From the IMG/VR virus record IMGVR_UViG_3300044733_001532, positions 1-25,648 of that record: a stretch of 25,648 bases of DNA; one strand, 5' to 3'. Source of the stretch: a virus. The notes beneath the pieces are model-generated. The model did not search any database. It saw nothing but the letters and a program-made list of their open reading frames with translations, and was not told where the DNA came from. Positions 1 through 12,762 of the stretch are shown here, in pieces. How positions within the stretch are numbered: the first letter of the stretch is position 1; each line of letters opens with the position of its first letter. The position numbers and the translations under genes were made by a program.

Positions 1-1062
1 ATTGATACATCCGGCAGGCTCTTAGTTGGCACGTCTACTGCGCGTACCAACTTCAACACTGGTGCGGAGCAATCTCACATCCAGCTTGAAGGAACGACCT
101 TCAATACCTCAAACCTAAGCATTGTTCGTAATTCAGCAAATGATGGCACGGCTGCATTGACACTTGGAAAATCGCGTTCAGCAACTGTCAATGGAAACAC
201 CGTTGTTGTAAGTGGTGATCCACTTGGTTTTATTAACTTTGAGGGCGCAGATGGCACCAATATGGTGCGTGGTGCATCTATTACAGCCCAGGTAGACGGC
301 ACCCCTGGCACTAACGACATGCCAGGCCGCCTAGTGTTCTCCACTACCGCCGATGGAGCGAGCAGCCCGACGGAGCGGATGAGGATTCGCAATGACGGTT
401 CAATTTTAATTCAGCAAACAGCGCTTTCAAGCGCGTCCGACGGTTGTTATTTTAACGCCAATACTCCTGCTAATTTTCATCAATTACTTTGCCACAGTAC
501 CGCGACTTCAAGCCTGGCCAACTTGTACCTTAATCGGCAAGGATCTGATGGCACTTTAATTGACTTTAGACAGGCAGATACGACTGAGGGATCCGTTTCC
601 GTTTCTGGTACCACTGTTAGTTTTAATGGTGGCCACCTATCGCGCTGGTCGCAATTGCCTAATGAGGAAGATCCTTCAAGCATCCTAAAAGGCACCGTGA
701 TGTCAAACCTGGATGAGATGTGCGAGTGGGGTGAAGAAGACAATGAACAACTTAACAAAACCAAAGTAAGTGACGTTGAAGGCGATCCTAATGTTGCTGG
801 TGTCTTTGTCGCCACCTCGTTCTCCGAAGACGGTCCCCTGGATTTCTATCTGGCAATGACCGGCGACATGATCATCCGCATTGCCGAAGGTGTCACGGTG
901 CAGCGCGGTCAACTTCTTATGTCTGCAGGAGACGGAACTGCAAAGCCTCAAGGTGATGGGTTTGTTCAGGACAAGACCATCGCCAAAGTGACCAGCACTC
1001 ACGTCACCTGCACCTACGACGACGGCAGCTACTGCGTCCCCTGCGTTCTAATGGCTTGCTGA
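1..1062 (+). CDS. Tail fibre / receptor-binding protein, C-terminal part (5' end outside window)
   Basis: The frame is open from base 1 to the stop at 1060-1062 (353 codons seen), so the start lies upstream. The N-terminal part shown carries the IDTSGRLLVGT type motif common in phage tail fibres, followed by Ser/Thr/Asn/Gly-rich beta-structured sequence. The last 150 residues (from about GHLSRWSQLP to DGSYCVPCVLMAC) look like the C-terminal chaperone or autoproteolytic type domain found at the end of many cyanophage fibres, with the GD-x-II-R and TIAKV motifs. The likely role is host recognition at the outside of the short tail. The neighbouring small late genes and lysis genes fit a T7 gene 17 position. 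Cleavage of the terminal domain is inferred, not visible. Confidence 0.8.
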   Translation: MDTSGRLLVGTSTARTNFNTGAEQSHIQLEGTTFNTSNLSIVRNSANDGTAALTLGKSRSATVNGNTVVVSGDPLGFINFEGADGTNMVRGASITAQVDGTPGTNDMPGRLVFSTTADGASSPTERMRIRNDGSILIQQTALSSASDGCYFNANTPANFHQLLCHSTATSSLANLYLNRQGSDGTLIDFRQADTTEGSVSVSGTTVSFNGGHLSRWSQLPNEEDPSSILKGTVMSNLDEMCEWGEEDNEQLNKTKVSDVEGDPNVAGVFVATSFSEDGPLDFYLAMTGDMIIRIAEGVTVQRGQLLMSAGDGTAKPQGDGFVQDKTIAKVTSTHVTCTYDDGSYCVPCVLMAC

Positions 1063-4777: not shown

Positions 4778-4950
4778 AGCAGCAGCTACGAGTGGAACAG
4801 ATGAGGCGAGACATCCCAAACGCTTCTCGCAAAGACTTGGAGGAGATGCTGTATCAGTTCATCAAAATGAACATCGTCCTGCAGAATAACTTGAGCCAAG
4901 TTTTTAAGTGGGCGAGTAAATCCAATGCCAAGAGCCAGCAGCCAGACTGA
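4735..4950 (+). CDS. NblA-like small helical protein (phycobilisome degradation adaptor candidate)
   Basis: A 71-residue protein overlapping the HNH gene by 43 bases and the large terminase by 26. Residues 10-57 follow the NblA pattern: FDLSIEQQLRVEQM at the start of helix 1, a turn with Ser, then a helix with the DLEEMLYQF and IKMNIVLQNNL segments. NblA adaptors of cyanobacteria and some cyanophages bring phycobilisomes to the Clp protease, freeing amino acids. This would fit a Synechococcus host. The similarity is judged by eye, and many T7-like cyanophages have a small helical gene at this spot, so a packaging helper is an alternative. Confidence 0.55.
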   Translation: MDELPPLPSFDLSIEQQLRVEQMRRDIPNASRKDLEEMLYQFIKMNIVLQNNLSQVFKWASKSNAKSQQPD

Positions 4951-6682
4951 ACGGATTATTCAAGAAGCAGCAGCTTCGTTCCCTGTCTTTGCTACTTATC
5001 TCTGGGACTACTTAAGACTCCCTAGTCCCACTCCAGTTCAGTATCAAGTTGCTGACTACCTACAGACCGGTCCTAACCGCCGGATCATCATGGCGTACAG
5101 GGGCTGCGGTAAGTCGTTCCTGACGGCTGGTTATGTGCTGTGGAGGCTACGCCGAGATCCAGACTGTAAGGTGCTGGTGATCTCTGCAGCTCAGGACCGT
5201 GCAGATGCGTTCTCCGTCTTTTGTCATGACCTGCTCCGAAACTGGTTCATGGTCAAAGACCTGTTTCCTAGCGACACCCAACGGTTCTCAAAAGTTGCTT
5301 TTGACGTTTACGGAGCGAAACCAGACCAGTCTCCTTCGGTACGTTCCAGCGGCATTTTTGGTCAGATTACTGGCTCACGTGCTGATCTCATCGTTGCTGA
5401 TGACGTTGAAACACCACAATCCTGTGAAACCCAACTGATTCGAGACAAGCTTCGGGAATCAATCAAAGAGTTTGACTCCGTGATCAAACCCGGTGGGGAG
5501 ATCGTGTTCCTTGGAACTCCTCACACCCAAGACAGTGTTTACGCAAAGCTTGAGGTCTCTGGCTACGAAGTCAGGATCTGGCCTGCCCTGTACCCCACTA
5601 ATAAGAAGTTTAAGGACTACTACGGCGACCGTCTGGCACCAAAGATCAAAGCAGACCTAGAAGCCAACAAAGACCTTGCAGGACACCCTGTAGACCCTGG
5701 ACGCTTTGACTGGGAAGAACTGGAAGCTAGACAACTTTCCATTGGCCGTAGCACGTTCAACCTCCAGTTCCTCCTCGACATCAGCTTGAGTGATGAGGAG
5801 AAGTTTCCTCTCAAGCTCAGAGACCTCTGTGTGTTCCGCTTAAACCGCGAACAAGGTCCTAACAAAGTCATCTGGCTGGCTAACGGCGATAAAGCCCTTG
5901 ATCTGCCCTCAGTAGGTCTTCATGGTGATCTTTTCTACAAACCGGCTCAGATAGGGGATGAGTTTCTTGAATACACCGGGGTTGTCATGGCTGTTGACCC
6001 CTCTGGACGCGGCACTGACGAGCTTGGCTATTCGGTAGTTGCATACCTGAACGGCAACCTTTTCCTTCTCGCTAGCGGTGGCCTTCGGGGTGGCTACAGC
6101 GAACCGAACCTCAAAAAGCTTGCCCTCATCGCTAAGGAGTACAAGGTCAAGCAAATAATTGTTGAAAGCAACCTCGGCCTCGGGATGTTCTCTGAGCTTC
6201 TCAAGCGTTACCTCGGCACGATTTACCCCTGCAGCGTTGAAGAGGTCCGACACACAAAGCAAAAGGAACTCCGCATCATCGACACCCTTGAGCCTGTCCT
6301 TAACCAACACCGGCTCATGGTCGACACGAACGTAATCCTTCAAGACCTCGCCTCCACGGAGACCTACCCAAGCGAAACTAGAAGCCAGTACCAACTGTTC
6401 TTTCAGCTCACTCGGATTACCAAAGAGAAAGGCAGCTTGAGGCATGACGACAGGCTGGATGCTCTGGCTATGGCCGTTCAGTACTTTACGGAGTCCATGG
6501 CTCAAACAGAACAGAAAGCTATGCAGGCTCGTGAATCGGCACAGTGGGAACTAGAGCGTCGGTTTATCCAAGGAGACGGTGGTTTAAAGATCGACGCCAT
6601 TGGTTACGCAACGAGCCTTGAGGACCTCGAAAAGGCCCTTACAGCGTCCTCAGGTGGCGCTAATTGGCTCAGTGAGCTTTAA
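4925..6682 (+). CDS. terL: Large terminase subunit (T7 gp19-like)
   Basis: A 585-residue, full-length packaging motor. The ATPase half has Walker A AYRGCGKS (Lys63) and Walker B LIVADDVE (Asp159/Asp160), followed by the FLGTPHTQDSVY coupling motif. The RNase H-like nuclease half has VMAVDPSGRG (Asp358), IIVESNLG (Glu414) and HDDRLDALA (Asp508/509/512). It docks on the portal, pumps DNA into the prohead and cuts the concatemer. ATG 4925 overlaps the preceding gene. It is the last rightward late gene before the non-coding junction. Confidence 0.95.
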   Translation: MPRASSQTERIIQEAAASFPVFATYLWDYLRLPSPTPVQYQVADYLQTGPNRRIIMAYRGCGKSFLTAGYVLWRLRRDPDCKVLVISAAQDRADAFSVFCHDLLRNWFMVKDLFPSDTQRFSKVAFDVYGAKPDQSPSVRSSGIFGQITGSRADLIVADDVETPQSCETQLIRDKLRESIKEFDSVIKPGGEIVFLGTPHTQDSVYAKLEVSGYEVRIWPALYPTNKKFKDYYGDRLAPKIKADLEANKDLAGHPVDPGRFDWEELEARQLSIGRSTFNLQFLLDISLSDEEKFPLKLRDLCVFRLNREQGPNKVIWLANGDKALDLPSVGLHGDLFYKPAQIGDEFLEYTGVVMAVDPSGRGTDELGYSVVAYLNGNLFLLASGGLRGGYSEPNLKKLALIAKEYKVKQIIVESNLGLGMFSELLKRYLGTIYPCSVEEVRHTKQKELRIIDTLEPVLNQHRLMVDTNVILQDLASTETYPSETRSQYQLFFQLTRITKEKGSLRHDDRLDALAMAVQYFTESMAQTEQKAMQARESAQWELERRFIQGDGGLKIDAIGYATSLEDLEKALTASSGGANWLSEL

Positions 6683-6771: not shown

Positions 6772-6941
6772 CAAAGCGTATTAAGTGCTTTGTTTACCAG
6801 TATGGGGATTGCTTCGTCTAAAGACAGCTTAAAAGAACCTTTTTTTGTCCAGGTTTTTAATTTTTGATATGACTCGGTTGTGAGTATTACAGGAACCAAA
6901 ATTTCGATTGTCCCCTGCTCTGAGTCAAATAAAACAGGCAC
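6771..6941 (-). CDS. Small reverse-strand protein, unknown
   Basis: Reading leftward from GTG at 6941 gives 56 residues ending at the TGA at 6771-6773. The sequence has normal composition and looks folded: a beta-like start (TIEILVPVILTT), then a helix with YQKLKTW, a basic KKGSFKL turn and a C-terminal helix LDEAIPILVNKAL. That layout recalls a small ribbon-helix-helix type DNA-binding protein, but this is only a resemblance. An in-frame stop lies just upstream of the GTG and no Shine-Dalgarno sequence is seen. It sits alone in the late/early junction, opposite to the genes around it. Confidence 0.45.
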   Translation of the reverse strand: MPVLFDSEQGTIEILVPVILTTESYQKLKTWTKKGSFKLSLDEAIPILVNKALNTL

Positions 6942-6949
6942 GGTGGGTC

Positions 6950-7010
6950 ATACGCCAAAGACAGCCGGAGCTTAGACACCCTTTTTGGTTAATACGTCAA
7001 AAACAGCCAG
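6950..7010 (+). repeat. Two imperfect direct repeats 42 bases apart
   Basis: ATACGCCAAAGACAGCC at 6950 and ATACGTCAAAAACAGCC at 6992 differ at two positions. GACAGCC appears again at 7045. They lie in AT-rich non-coding DNA just before a promoter-like TTGACA. Confidence 0.55.
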
Positions 7011-7042
7011 CTTTCTAAGTGTCACAGCAAAGCTCAGCTTTC

Positions 7043-7071
7043 TTGACAGCCGTGATTAGAGTGTATTTAAG
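7043..7071 (+). promoter_or_regulatory. Candidate host sigma70-type promoter
   Basis: A consensus -35 TTGACA (7043-7048) is followed after 17 bases by TTTAAG (four of six matches to -10), with TATTTA as an alternative closer in. Transcription would run toward thyX. A hairpin starts about eight bases after the -10, so leader RNA would fold at once. Confidence 0.4.
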
Positions 7072-7078
7072 AGTAATT

Positions 7079-7116
7079 AAAAAGATTCTTTAAGTAAGTA
7101 CTTAAAGAGTCTTTTT
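7079..7116 (+). terminator. 18-bp AT-rich perfect hairpin, terminator-like on both strands
   Basis: AAAAAGATTCTTTAAGTA pairs with TACTTAAAGAGTCTTTTT (one G-U pair) around a minimal loop. A/T runs at both ends make it terminator-like in either direction. It could also extrude as a cruciform at an origin. Confidence 0.5.
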
Positions 7117-7286
7117 TAAAAGGTCTTTTATCGTAGTAAAGGTAAATAACGTTTGTTATAAATAATTACCCTGTTTTAAAGGGTCTTTTACTGTCTCCCT
7201 TTTAAGACCTTCTTAAGACACTTATTAAAGAGGTCTTTAGAGGTACCACTTAAAGGCCTCTTAGAGCTACCTTTAAGTGCCTCTTT
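7102..7286 (+). repeat. Iterated TTAAAGRGGTCTTTA-type palindromes, cluster A
   Basis: Near-palindromic units occur at 7102-7115 (AAAGAGTCTTTT), 7118-7129 (AAAAGGTCTTTT), 7174-7190 (TTTTAAAGGGTCTTTTA), 7197-7210 (inverted, CCCTTTTAAGACCT), 7225-7239 (TTAAAGAGGTCTTTA) and 7250-7263 (TTAAAGGCCTCTTA). The last element TTTAAGTGCCTCTTT (7272-7286) recurs exactly at 11977-11991. The stretch is AT-rich, has no gene, and abuts thyX. Confidence 0.65.
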
Positions 7287-7300
7287 AATTAGCAATTAAA

Positions 7301-9633: not shown

Positions 9634-10347
9634 ATGCAGAACCCTTCCACCTTTCACCTCTCCAAAAGTTCAAACAAAAAGCTTGGTAAAAACGTCTACG
9701 CTTCAACGTCTAGCTCTGACACTTGTCCCATCACTTGTGGAATGTATAAAGAATGTTACGCAAAGAAAGGTCCTCAGTCTTGGCATTGGAACAAAGTTAG
9801 TCGCGGTCAAAGAGGAACAGACTGGCTAAGTTTCTGTGCTGATGTAGAGAAACTAAAACCAGGCACTTTGTTTAGGCATAACGTTTCAGGTGATCTACCT
9901 TACGTTGCTCGCTACCCTGGCGATACCTGGCGTTGCATAGACACTGTGGCCTTAGATCAACTGCAGTGTGCAGTCACAAACAGTGGCGCTAAGTTCTATA
10001 CCTACACTCACACTCACACTGATAATGTCTACAGCAAAACAAACCTAGACACAATCAAACGATTCTCACAGCCTGGGTTTGTTATCAACCTTTCAACTGA
10101 GAAACCTAGGGATGCTTTTAAGTTTAAACAACTTGGGTTTGATGTAGTAATAACAAACACTTTTGTGTTTGAGTTAGCAGTTGACTCTATTAAGACTCAC
10201 AAAAAGCCTGCAACTATTATGTTTGGCGGTGAGTCTGTGCCTGTTATTCCTTGCCCAGAACAATACACTGAGAGCGCTACTTGTGCTACTTGCAAACTCT
10301 GCGCGAGAGCTAATCGGGATTATGTAATTGCTTTTAAGAAACACTAA
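9634..10347 (+). CDS. Cys-rich conserved phage protein (gp88-like), predicted metal-binding
   Basis: A 237-residue protein. The N-terminus has KLGKNVYASTSSSDTCPITC, then a CYAKKG turn, which gives Cys at spacing 3 and 5. A SWHWNKVSRGQRGTDWLSF segment follows. The C-terminus has CPEQYTESATCATCKLCARA, which gives four more Cys in C-x9-C-x2-C-x2-C form. This layout matches a family of phage proteins of unknown role sometimes called gp88-like, in which the Cys clusters should bind Zn or an Fe-S cluster. The middle part (THTHTDNVY, FVINLSTEKPRDAF) looks like an alpha/beta fold. It is the largest gene of the early train. Confidence 0.7.
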   Translation: MQNPSTFHLSKSSNKKLGKNVYASTSSSDTCPITCGMYKECYAKKGPQSWHWNKVSRGQRGTDWLSFCADVEKLKPGTLFRHNVSGDLPYVARYPGDTWRCIDTVALDQLQCAVTNSGAKFYTYTHTHTDNVYSKTNLDTIKRFSQPGFVINLSTEKPRDAFKFKQLGFDVVITNTFVFELAVDSIKTHKKPATIMFGGESVPVIPCPEQYTESATCATCKLCARANRDYVIAFKKH

Positions 10348-10432: not shown

Positions 10433-10458
10433 GGCCTCCAATCGGGGGCCTTTAATTA
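10433..10458 (+). terminator. Intrinsic terminator of the small-gene train
   Basis: GGCCTCC (10433-10439) pairs with GGGGGCC (10444-10450) around AATC, followed by TTTAATTA. The 7-bp stem has one G-U pair. Confidence 0.7.
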
Positions 10459-10469
10459 TGCAAACTGTT

Positions 10470-10527
10470 ATTGAGAATGCGTCGCAATTGCAGGTAGGTC
10501 TAGAACTTATTGAGAATGACTCGCAAT
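10470..10527 (+). promoter_or_regulatory. Twin Fur-like dyads
   Basis: ATTGAGAATGCGTCGCAAT (10470-10488) and ATTGAGAATGACTCGCAAT (10509-10527) agree at 17 of 19 positions and start 39 bases apart. Each is a partial dyad (ATTGMGA with TCKCAAT) and resembles Fur-family boxes of the TGAGAATGATTCTCA type. AGGTCT and AGACCT flank the second copy. No clear promoter is seen between them. Confidence 0.5.
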
Positions 10528-10629: not shown

Positions 10630-10651
10630 AGCTTTGAAGCAGCGACGACAT

Positions 10652-11044
10652 ATGTTGATGCTGGTCCCTGCAAACGCCAAGGAGAAGTTCTACGCACCAC
10701 TTAAGCAAGTGGCAGCTCAGTACGTTCCACTCCTGATGGCACGAATGACGGTCTTACAAGATCGAGCCAATCGAGCTCTTGAGTTCCTGGATGCTGAAGA
10801 AGAGGAAGACCAAGAGTTGGTGTGGATGGATGACGCAGAGAAAGTAGTTGCTGTTGCAGAGGCACAATCCGTCCTTCATAAGTCAGTAGTAGAAGCAGGG
10901 ATGTGCCAATCGTTAGTCGGAGCATTTGCAGATTTGTTGGAGAACGATTACCAAAGGCTCAGAGATAGCCGGTGTGCGTTCCTCAACGAAGAGGGTGAGT
11001 TGGAATCTCTTTACGAAGATGATGAATCCAATGAAGGGCTCTGA
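10652..11044 (+). CDS. Acidic helical protein, unknown
   Basis: ATG 10652 gives 130 residues; a TTG at 10634 would add six. The protein is helical and acidic, with FLDAEEEEDQELVWMDDAEK in the middle and an acidic tail (LYEDDESNEGL). It has a hydrophobic N-terminal helix (MLMLVPANAKEKFYAPLKQV) without signal-peptide features. Its 3' end runs 34 bases into the leftward gene 11011-11292, so the two are convergent. No family is recognised. Confidence 0.6.
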   Translation: MLMLVPANAKEKFYAPLKQVAAQYVPLLMARMTVLQDRANRALEFLDAEEEEDQELVWMDDAEKVVAVAEAQSVLHKSVVEAGMCQSLVGAFADLLENDYQRLRDSRCAFLNEEGELESLYEDDESNEGL

Positions 11045-11292
11045 GCGCTTGGTAAGTTATCAAGCCTACCAGCAGCCCTTCTAAGGGCCTCTAAGGCCCC
11101 TTCAGATCCCTTCGGCTCCAACCACCCCAGAAGGACCTCAAAGAGGGCTTCAAGGCGCTCTGGGGCATCAATGAGACTCTCTCCGAACCTCTTGTTATCC
11201 CAATACGCCACGAGGCACCGAGCTTTGAGGTCGTCTAGCTCAGCCTTGTCACACATTTGGTTGAGCTCTTCCTCGGTGTACTGGTCAATCAC
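11011..11292 (-). CDS. Leftward small protein 5 of the reverse cassette, unknown
   Basis: The start is chosen as GTG at 11292, not an upstream ATG, because GGAGGA stands five bases before it and GTGATTGA overlaps the stop of the upstream gene. The 93 residues begin with a helical acidic part (QYTEEELNQMCDKAELDDLK), then ALFEVLLGWLEP, and end in a Ser-rich tail. Part of the C-terminal coding sequence (11079-11093) coincides with a copy of the GC-rich repeat. It is the last gene of the leftward cassette and overlaps convergently with 10652-11044. The function is unknown. Confidence 0.6.
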   Translation of the reverse strand: MIDQYTEEELNQMCDKAELDDLKARCLVAYWDNKRFGESLIDAPERLEALFEVLLGWLEPKGSEGALEALRRAAGRLDNLPSAQSPSLDSSSS

Positions 11293-11518
11293 AATCTTCC
11301 TCCAGTTTTTGAGTGATCTTTGATTGCCAATACTGCCAACGCACAAGTGCTGGTACAGAGGATGGTTGGATTCCCATGTTTTCCAAAAGTAATTCAAACC
11401 ACTGAGCTACAGCTTCGATTGTTGAGTCAACTTTGGGGTGACCCGGTGAGTAATCAAGAGCATCTCCAATCAAGTGTTGGAGCTTTGTGTAGTTGCTTTC
11501 GTCGTCAGTAGTTGTCAT
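11285..11518 (-). CDS. Leftward small protein 4 of the reverse cassette, unknown
   Basis: A 77-residue acidic helical protein from ATG 11518. It contains NYTKLQHLIGDALDYSPGHP, then EAVAQWFELLLENMGI and a WQYWQSKITQKLEED end. The Trp-rich C-terminal helix is unusual. Its start lies inside the end of the preceding leftward gene and its stop overlaps the next GTG. No family is recognised. Confidence 0.6.
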   Translation of the reverse strand: MTTTDDESNYTKLQHLIGDALDYSPGHPKVDSTIEAVAQWFELLLENMGIQPSSVPALVRWQYWQSKITQKLEEDCD

Positions 11519-11675
11519 CAGACCATTCAGGTTGTAGTGAAACTTTGAATTGTTTGATGTGTGGATACAGCTCTTGAAAAGAGGTAATAGCTAATGACGA
11601 ATCAAAAGCCATTACCTCAAATTCAAAATCTTTAGCTGTTACACAAAAGGTTTTGGGTTTATGGATCAATGTCAT
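11505..11675 (-). CDS. Leftward small protein 3 of the reverse cassette, unknown
   Basis: ATG 11675 gives 56 residues with normal composition: a beta-type N-terminal half (FCVTAKDFEFEVMAFDSS) and a helix-turn (AITSFQELYPHIKQFKVSL), ending in acidic DDNY. It overlaps the gene before it by 17 bases and the gene after by 14, the same linked style as the whole cassette. The function is unknown. Confidence 0.55.
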   Translation of the reverse strand: MTLIHKPKTFCVTAKDFEFEVMAFDSSLAITSFQELYPHIKQFKVSLQPEWSDDNY

Positions 11676-11829
11676 TGATTACAACCTCACCACAAAGACT
11701 TTCAAGAGCAGCTAAATACCCATCCCAAAAGTCTTTCTGTTGATCACCTACAGCTTTTTTGTATTGATCACGAGCGTATTCATATTCATCAATCACAACT
11801 TCAACATCAAGAGTTACTGCTTCTGACAT
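11659..11829 (-). CDS. Leftward small protein 2 of the reverse cassette, unknown
   Basis: ATG 11829 gives 56 residues. An in-frame ATG at 11868 would add 13 residues that only shadow the upstream gene. The protein is acidic with aromatic helices (VEVVIDEYEYARDQYKKAVG, QQKDFWDGYLAALESL). The DEYEYARDQYKKA part looks like a helical-hairpin protein. The start follows the previous stop by one base. The function is unknown. Confidence 0.6.
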   Translation of the reverse strand: MSEAVTLDVEVVIDEYEYARDQYKKAVGDQQKDFWDGYLAALESLCGEVVINDIDP

Positions 11830-11830
11830 T

Positions 11831-11977
11831 TCACTTCTGCTCCCACACGGAAGGATCAAAGTAGTCATCAGTAGTAGCTTCTTCTTTCTCTTGTTCTTGT
11901 TCCTGTTTAATTACTTCCAAAAGATCTTCTAGTAACTGATCAAGTTGTTTGTTGTCAGTTGGATCCTGGGGAGTCAT
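11831..11977 (-). CDS. Leftward small protein 1 of the reverse cassette, unknown
   Basis: ATG 11977 opens the cassette. The 48 residues are very acidic and Gln-rich (LDQLLEDLLEVIKQEQEQEK, then EEATTDDYFDPSVWEQK) and should form one long helix with a flexible end. The start codon touches the 15-base repeat TTTAAGTGCCTCTTT, so the promoter must lie in the palindrome-rich stretch to its right. The function is unknown. Confidence 0.6.
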   Translation of the reverse strand: MTPQDPTDNKQLDQLLEDLLEVIKQEQEQEKEEATTDDYFDPSVWEQK

Positions 11978-12124
11978 TTAAGTGCCTCTTTGAATGGCGA
12001 TAAAAGAACCTCTTTAAAAGGGCGCTCTAAGTGGCCTCTGAAGGAAGACCGCTAGAGACCTTTTTAAGAAGGCCTTTAAAACTTAAAGAGGGTCTTTCTC
12101 AAAGGCCACTTAAAGAGGCCACTT
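11977..12124 (+). repeat. Palindrome cluster B between divergent operons
   Basis: TTTAAGTGCCTCTTT (11977-11991) repeats 7272-7286 exactly. AAGTGGCCTCT (12029-12039) and AGAGGCCACTT (12114-12124) are a perfect 11-bp inverted pair. GCCACTT also occurs at 12104. AGACCTTTTTAAG (12056-12068) pairs with CTTAAAGAGGGTCT (12082-12095) around AAGGCCTT. The stretch separates the leftward cassette from the SSB gene and must hold both promoters. Confidence 0.65.
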
Positions 12125-12177
12125 CAAGAGCTGGCCTAAGACCCCTCTACGAGGCGTAAGCACCGCAGGTACCTTCT

Positions 12178-12762
12178 GTGGGTCCTTTCGACTTAAAGGC
12201 CATGCAGATCCAAGGAACCCTTACGGGCTGGATCCCTGACTTTTACGAAACCCCTACCTACAACGGTGAGACCTCCGACTTCCGTCTCAAGGTTCTTGTT
12301 CAAGACGCTGCTGAGATTGTCGAAGAGATCAGCGACGAGTACGACAAAGCGTGTGAGTGGTATCGGGATGCCACTGGCAAGAAGAACTTTTTTGATGCCC
12401 CGTTTGAGATGAACGAGGATGGCTCAGCCGTAATCAAGCTGACTGCCAAGACGGTGTATGGGGAGTTCCCTCTGCCTGTGGTGGACACTGAGCTGCAGCC
12501 CATTGCTCGTGATCTCAAGCTGCGTGAAGGCTCTGAGATCCTGGTGGCAATCAAGTACACCTACATCCCTCGCAAGAGCCCTCGTGGTGGCCTCCGGCTG
12601 TGCCCTAAGGGTATCCAGGTCCTGAAGGCTGTTACCACGGCTGGTAGCGACAGTGGTGACTTCGACATCGCTAAGGCTTTCAAGAAGCAATCAGGCTTCA
12701 AGCAATCCAAGCCAAACGTGAAGGAACTTGCTACTGTGTCGGGCGAAGATCCTGACTTTTGA
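12178..12762 (+). CDS. Single-stranded DNA-binding protein (T7 gp2.5-like)
   Basis: A 194-residue protein beginning at GTG 12178; ATG 12202 (MQIQGTLTGW) is an alternative. It fits gp2.5: an OB-like core with the IQGTLTGWIPDFYETPTYNG start, a middle with PFEMNEDGSAVIKLTAK, a YIPRKSPRGG loop, and an acidic C-terminal tail ending SGEDPDF. The terminal Phe after acidic residues is the contact used by gp2.5 to bind polymerase and helicase. It coats ssDNA at the fork and aids annealing. It is the first gene of the replication block, four bases before endonuclease I, and divergent from the leftward cassette. Confidence 0.85.
   Translation: MGPFDLKAMQIQGTLTGWIPDFYETPTYNGETSDFRLKVLVQDAAEIVEEISDEYDKACEWYRDATGKKNFFDAPFEMNEDGSAVIKLTAKTVYGEFPLPVVDTELQPIARDLKLREGSEILVAIKYTYIPRKSPRGGLRLCPKGIQVLKAVTTAGSDSGDFDIAKAFKKQSGFKQSKPNVKELATVSGEDPDF

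Follow-up and report, generated by a model that had tools for sequence, protein, structure and literature searches.

Five short genes that run leftward through an otherwise rightward phage genome fragment proved to be real protein genes under purifying selection. We propose, at a probability of about 0.72 for the proposal taken in its entirety, that they form a counter-transcribed accessory (cargo) operon of a P-RSP2-like cyanopodovirus lineage, in which genes A and B on one side and gene E on the other are the bookends of an exchangeable middle, and whose small acidic proteins would act on the cyanobacterial host. The fragment, hereafter the window, comprises 25,648 bases of an IMG/VR record and belongs to a genome that is longer than this. 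The cassette is a variant of the phage accessory or host-takeover locus and not a new kind of system.

The rightward genes of the window encode a T7-type tail fibre, an endolysin, TerL, ThyX, SSB (gp2.5), an endonuclease, a primase-helicase, a DNA polymerase, an exonuclease, a ribonucleotide reductase, and connector, scaffold and capsid proteins. The cassette converges on a conserved acidic gene (10634-11044, + strand; pI 4.4), which has a homologue in P-RSP2, and diverges from the conserved gene of the gp2.5-like ssDNA-binding protein (SSB; 12205-12762, + strand). Gene A (11831-11977, - strand; 48 aa, pI 4.05) leads the leftward operon and is followed by B (11659-11829, - strand; 56 aa, pI 4.05), the best conserved gene of the cassette. 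Next come C (11505-11675, - strand; 56 aa) and D (11285-11518, - strand; 77 aa), two pieces of exchangeable cargo of which the former occurs in some relatives only and the latter is also met on the + strand in unrelated phages. The conserved gene E (11011-11292, - strand; 93 aa) ends the operon. A and B are one base apart, while B/C, C/D and D/E overlap by 17, 14 and 8 nt, respectively; E begins with a GTG that has GGAGGA 5 nt upstream, and shares 34 nt with the stop end of the acidic gene. The start of B is uncertain, an in-frame ATG upstream at 11868 giving 69 aa, and the open frame of E extends back to a TTG at 11397 (128 aa). This layout is the one described in the initial annotation, which had counted four acidic proteins out of five. 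In fact all five are acidic (pI 4.05-5.04), a property common to other small proteins of the same genome.

Relatives were collected from IMG/VR: SSB as a query retrieved 55 loci, and later queries (DNA polymerase, TerL, B and E) enlarged this set. Of 53 distinct intervals between the acidic gene and SSB, 51 have B and 39 have E on the strand opposite to these two genes, and in no interval does either share their strand. When all loci were taken without deduplication, each of the 172 B and 150 E matches that have a neighbour was opposite to it, and all B and E matches among 2.9 million IMG/VR contigs adjoin SSB or the acidic gene. The place and orientation of the block between these two genes are fixed. 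Differences in codon positions 1, 2 and 3 of the reverse frames, summed over pairs, numbered 686, 472 and 1036 for B and 516, 467 and 919 for E. In nearly all pairs compared, dN was well below dS; the ratio was roughly 0.1-0.6 in the case of A, B and E, and did not exceed about 0.1 in that of D (dN 0.09-0.13 and dS above 1 between the window and the copies in unrelated phages). Such conservation of the reverse strand at one place, combined with purifying substitution, is far beyond chance. Two of the checks put forward in the initial annotation, a comparison of the locus in related cyanophages and a search for synonymous-biased substitution, favoured genes, and the overlaps of neighbouring frames are usually 4, 8, 14 or 17 nt.

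One could argue that the reverse ORFs are spurious, or that an antisense transcript matters and not the proteins, given that E runs into the 3' end of the acidic gene and that the intergenic DNA folds strongly as a single sequence. Yet the excess of third-position changes and the dN/dS below 1 are found in the reverse frames, the proteins are kept at about 28-40% identity in distant relatives, whole genes are exchanged at start/stop junctions, and the consensus fold is not conserved. Spurious ORFs are refuted by the coding signal, the protein conservation and the whole-gene exchange, and we give this explanation, antisense transcript included, practically no chance.

Across relatives the gene order is A <- B <- variable genes <- E. 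The core consists of A-B at the operon start and E at the operon end, retained around a middle slot. The conserved part of A is its C-terminus (EATxDDxxDPxxWEQK); in L048-L054, this part stands at the head of the B gene and there is no E, which leaves one conserved reverse gene. The W-GY core of B is invariant, and the protein is predicted to fold as a two-helix hairpin (pLDDT 81). Two helices are likewise predicted for E (pLDDT 73), the core of which reads AYWxNxxFxxSLIDAPER, with W, N and SLIDAPER invariant.

The middle genes are replaced even between close relatives. The slot holds C and D in the window, C and a SPAAQA-type gene in L009, a SPAAQ-type gene in L008, a 48-aa gene in L005 and no insert in L002, despite the fact that the SSB genes of these five are 92-99% identical at the DNA level. 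Among relatives, C is present in L004, L009, L011, L025-L027, L033 and L034 only. The cassette is thus modular. YTEEELNQMCD, the N-terminus of E, recurs on another cargo protein in L014, L025 and L028; taken together with the usual frame overlaps, this suggests that cargo may be exchanged at gene junctions.

D was also found, rightward, in the unrelated phages L066-L071. In L066, a phage with an RNA polymerase (RNAP) gene, it comes after ThyX; in L069 it sits between primase-helicase and DNA polymerase, preceded by a SPAAQA-type gene; and in L068 it precedes several ITPPPEL-type genes. It was not found in bacterial genomes. ITPPPEL-type proteins occur in the isolates S-H1, S-CBS2 and S-RIP1 as well. 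The presence of D and of ITPPPEL types elsewhere, with D in rightward orientation, indicates that the cargo is common to cyanophages and not bound to a strand, and that it is the slot that is strand-bound. The small-protein families SPAAQA..LRAAADQ..AIADELE and ITPPPELVxQW..AAQWGADQELEA..IRRALEQL recur, sometimes in tandem, in different kinds of cyanophages, the sites being those of L066-L071 and positions 6537-7570 of L068.

Deep relatives fill the same slot with other genes, among them hli (high-light-inducible), which serves to protect photosynthesis, and the gene of a cyanophage outer-membrane protein (Phage_OMP). P-RSP2 (HQ332139), a Prochlorococcus phage from an outlier clade of marine cyanopodoviruses, shares with the window the succession of acidic gene, counter-oriented small genes, SSB and endonuclease; its SSB is 49% identical, and no RNA polymerase was found in it. 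The homology of SSB and of the acidic gene, with a counter-oriented block between the two, places the window in the P-RSP2-like cyanopodovirus lineage. Two counter-oriented ORFs are annotated in this interval of P-RSP2. Unlike the window, it carries there, in place of A-E, a counter-oriented hli-like gene, which is unannotated, and a KGLYANIHAKRKRI-type protein (PHROG_16028). The former is a 35-aa ORF at 41895-42002 (+), repeated at 153-260 (+), which matches hli (PHROG_178, E 3.8e-18). L148 has a counter-oriented 58-aa hli (PHROG_178, 2e-20) together with Phage_OMP (PF24653, 1.8e-38), L147 has B together with Phage_OMP (PF24653, 1.1e-37), and the proteins of L151 are those of P-RSP2. All hli and Phage_OMP genes of P-RSP2, L147 and L148 are counter-oriented and lie within the acidic-to-SSB interval, and both of the 53 intervals that are without B hold a counter-oriented hli gene. 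These cyanophage auxiliary genes are matched by none of A-E, PHROG_178 and PF24653 having been found in P-RSP2, L147 and L148 only, which are deep branches sharing few or no genes with the cassette of the window (L147 shares B). The occupation of the slot by other genes in deep relatives indicates that the counter-oriented slot is older than any single gene in it. It is also mainly this known host-directed cargo that leads us to read the cassette of the window as accessory and host-directed. Of note, the hli carriers listed in a 2015 comparison all belong to MPP-B, apart from two phages of MPP-A (PMC4646655); P-RSP2 is not among them, yet carries an hli-like gene.

The leftward block had first drawn attention as an oddity in a T7-like genome, in which transcription was expected to run one way. 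The likeness to T7 is borne out by gene content. Homologues of gp2.5, gp3, gp4, gp5, gp6, connector, scaffold, capsid and TerL are shared with T7 and P-SSP7, and gp2.5, gp4, gp5, gp6, connector, capsid and TerL make the replication, packaging and head genes of the window T7-type. The expectation of one direction is less safe. In T7, the RNAP gene precedes that of SSB, and in P-SSP7 it does so directly; these phages have rightward early genes and RNAP in the stretch before SSB, whereas the window has the leftward cassette in that stretch and no RNAP was found in it. T7 itself carries a single leftward promoter for the host polymerase, A0, close to the left end of its genome. A single-subunit RNAP (PF00940) was detected neither in the 25.6-kb window nor in P-RSP2 (42.3 kb), G000-G004 and G007-G013, the search covering long relatives of 39.4, 40.7, 43.4 and 40.9 kb and others; G005 was positive in the first of two PF00940 searches, the second of which was run without a positive control of its own. 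The T7-type combination of an RNAP gene with a single direction was thus not found in this lineage, and we infer from the relatives that the phage of the window probably lacks a single-subunit RNAP too. In that case the host RNA polymerase would probably transcribe the genome and gene orientation would be freed, which makes leftward genes less odd. Loss of the phage polymerase may have removed the constraint that holds T7-type genes on one strand.

No other stretch of the window is as rich in short repeats as the 230 bp that separate the leftward gene A from the rightward SSB gene (11978-12204; z 8.4). Repeats of the CCTCTTTAAAAG type lie there in both orientations, and a box that hardly varies, GCACCGCAGGTACCTTCTGTGGGTCCTTTCG, is located at about 12160-12190. 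The region is the natural place for putative divergent promoters; a simple scan of the region for sigma-70-type promoters gave none, and Rfam and tRNA scans were empty. Single-sequence folds of the region yielded a hairpin (z about -3.5 to -3.9), which was rejected as a conserved element when a 17-sequence consensus did not retain it. In the sequence of events that we propose, the host RNA polymerase would transcribe the cassette leftward from this repeat-rich region, which is shared with the SSB operon, translation would be coupled through the overlapping stop and start codons, and the small acidic proteins would act, probably early, on host processes or physiology. Recombination at gene junctions and in the conserved flanks would swap the cargo.

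What the proteins do was approached through family searches. As had been surmised from the sequence, none of the five has a significant match in Pfam or PHROGs; PADLOC gave no matches and no anti-defence family, and B and E did not match PDB sequences. As no recognised family is found among the five, the proposal that they act on the host draws on the cargo of relatives and on general precedent. The initial annotation had suggested an accessory, defence, anti-defence or host-control module. The accessory, host-directed part of this suggestion agrees with the position, the strand, the selection, the exchangeable middle and the hli and Phage_OMP genes of relatives, whereas defence and anti-defence found no support in the PADLOC, Pfam and PHROG searches, which gave no significant match. 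Small acidic proteins such as DNA mimics or RecBCD inhibitors could nonetheless serve as anti-defence proteins or nuclease inhibitors. The size and pI of the five proteins and the predicted two-helix hairpin of B would fit such a role, and two B homologues weakly match the PHROG "host RecBCD nuclease inhibitor" (E 0.028-0.18). These matches are not significant and span 25-30 residues around the W-GY motif, the PADLOC, Pfam and PDB sequence searches gave no match, and acidity is shared by other small proteins of the genome; we consider this role unlikely. A block of toxin-antitoxin or superinfection-exclusion genes retained through addiction would resemble the cassette in form only, through short, translationally coupled, counter-oriented and exchangeable members. 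No toxin, antitoxin or exclusion family was matched, none of the five proteins is basic, and the conserved A, B and E are unlike an exchangeable pair, which makes an addiction block very improbable.

Another explanation concerns the place of the cassette, which could lie in or beside a direct terminal repeat and thus be present at both genome ends and enter the host first, like the T5 pre-early and SPO1 host-takeover genes. Synteny with T7 and P-SSP7 would put the genome end between TerL (4925-6682) and SSB, and the repeat-rich array on the SSB side recalls the short-repeat regions that flank the terminal repeat of T7 (in the short-repeat test, z was 25 for the T7 control and 8-19 for several relatives). 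Nearly all T7 repeats are direct, whereas those found here occur in both orientations, and the intergenic stretch between TerL and ThyX (about 6930-7300) is repeat-rich as well. The ends of the P-RSP2 record form a 515-bp near-identical repeat located exactly between SSB and the acidic gene, with the counter-oriented ORFs inside. This was first read as a direct terminal repeat, a reading weakened by control records: those of P-GSP1 and S-RIP1 overlap at their ends by 356 bp (RNR/connector region) and 447 bp (capsid region), and these overlaps stem from assembly and do not mark termini, so the P-RSP2 repeat may be an assembly overlap too. How such assemblies mislead has been shown (PMC3350473), and P-SSP7 has a proven 206-bp DTR (PMC3350473). 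No terminal repeats were found at the ends of the long relatives G001 and G002, whose contigs continue across the junction. On balance a location inside a terminal repeat, by analogy with T5 and SPO1, is plausible, though at rather less than even odds. The stretch at 6930-7300 (z about 4-5) is an alternative candidate for the genome end.

The SPO1 host takeover module comprises 26 genes, among them several that attenuate the growth of the host (PMC6873191). Like it and the T5 pre-early genes, the cassette is a tight cluster of small genes thought to act on the host, possibly at a genome end; no homology to either was found. In a bolder version, which we regard as doubtful, a takeover island read leftward by the host polymerase and located at the genome end would have taken the place of the early region and polymerase in this RNAP-less lineage. 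This island would lie inside the terminal repeat and hence be carried twice, with fixed bookends and swapped host-directed cargo (hli and OMP, elsewhere small acidic proteins).

Read as an accessory operon, the cassette would point to one site at which host-directed genes gather and are exchanged in a cyanophage group that is widespread but has hardly been studied, and the fixed flanks (acidic gene and SSB) make its cargo readable from metagenomes. It would also account for the transcription layout of a T7-related phage without its own RNAP, a bidirectional host-type promoter region replacing the early region. The small protein families added here (A, B, D, E, and the SPAAQA and ITPPPEL types) can be screened on cyanobacteria.

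Some minor observations concern the surroundings of the cassette and the relatives. The 125,842-bp contig G003 (L042/L079-L081) is three times the expected genome size; the genes of the phage occupy roughly its first 37 kb, and at the far end there is another endolysin, 50% identical, along with further genes, so it is possibly a chimeric or multi-phage assembly. A GC-rich, terminator-like hairpin, GGCCTCCAATCGGGGGCC, lies at 10433-10450 (+), downstream of a DUF7227 gene (9634-10347), and is followed by a T-rich stretch. Upstream of the acidic gene, at 10471-10527 (+), TTGAGAATGNNTCGCAAT is present in two copies 39 bp apart (chance expectation 0.02). Sites of this type occur in many relatives, in one to several copies usually 32-44 bp apart, and some are nearly perfect palindromes, such as TTGAGAATCATTCTCAA. 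We take these sites to resemble Fur-type operators, and their conservation suggests that a phage gene may be under host iron or stress regulation.
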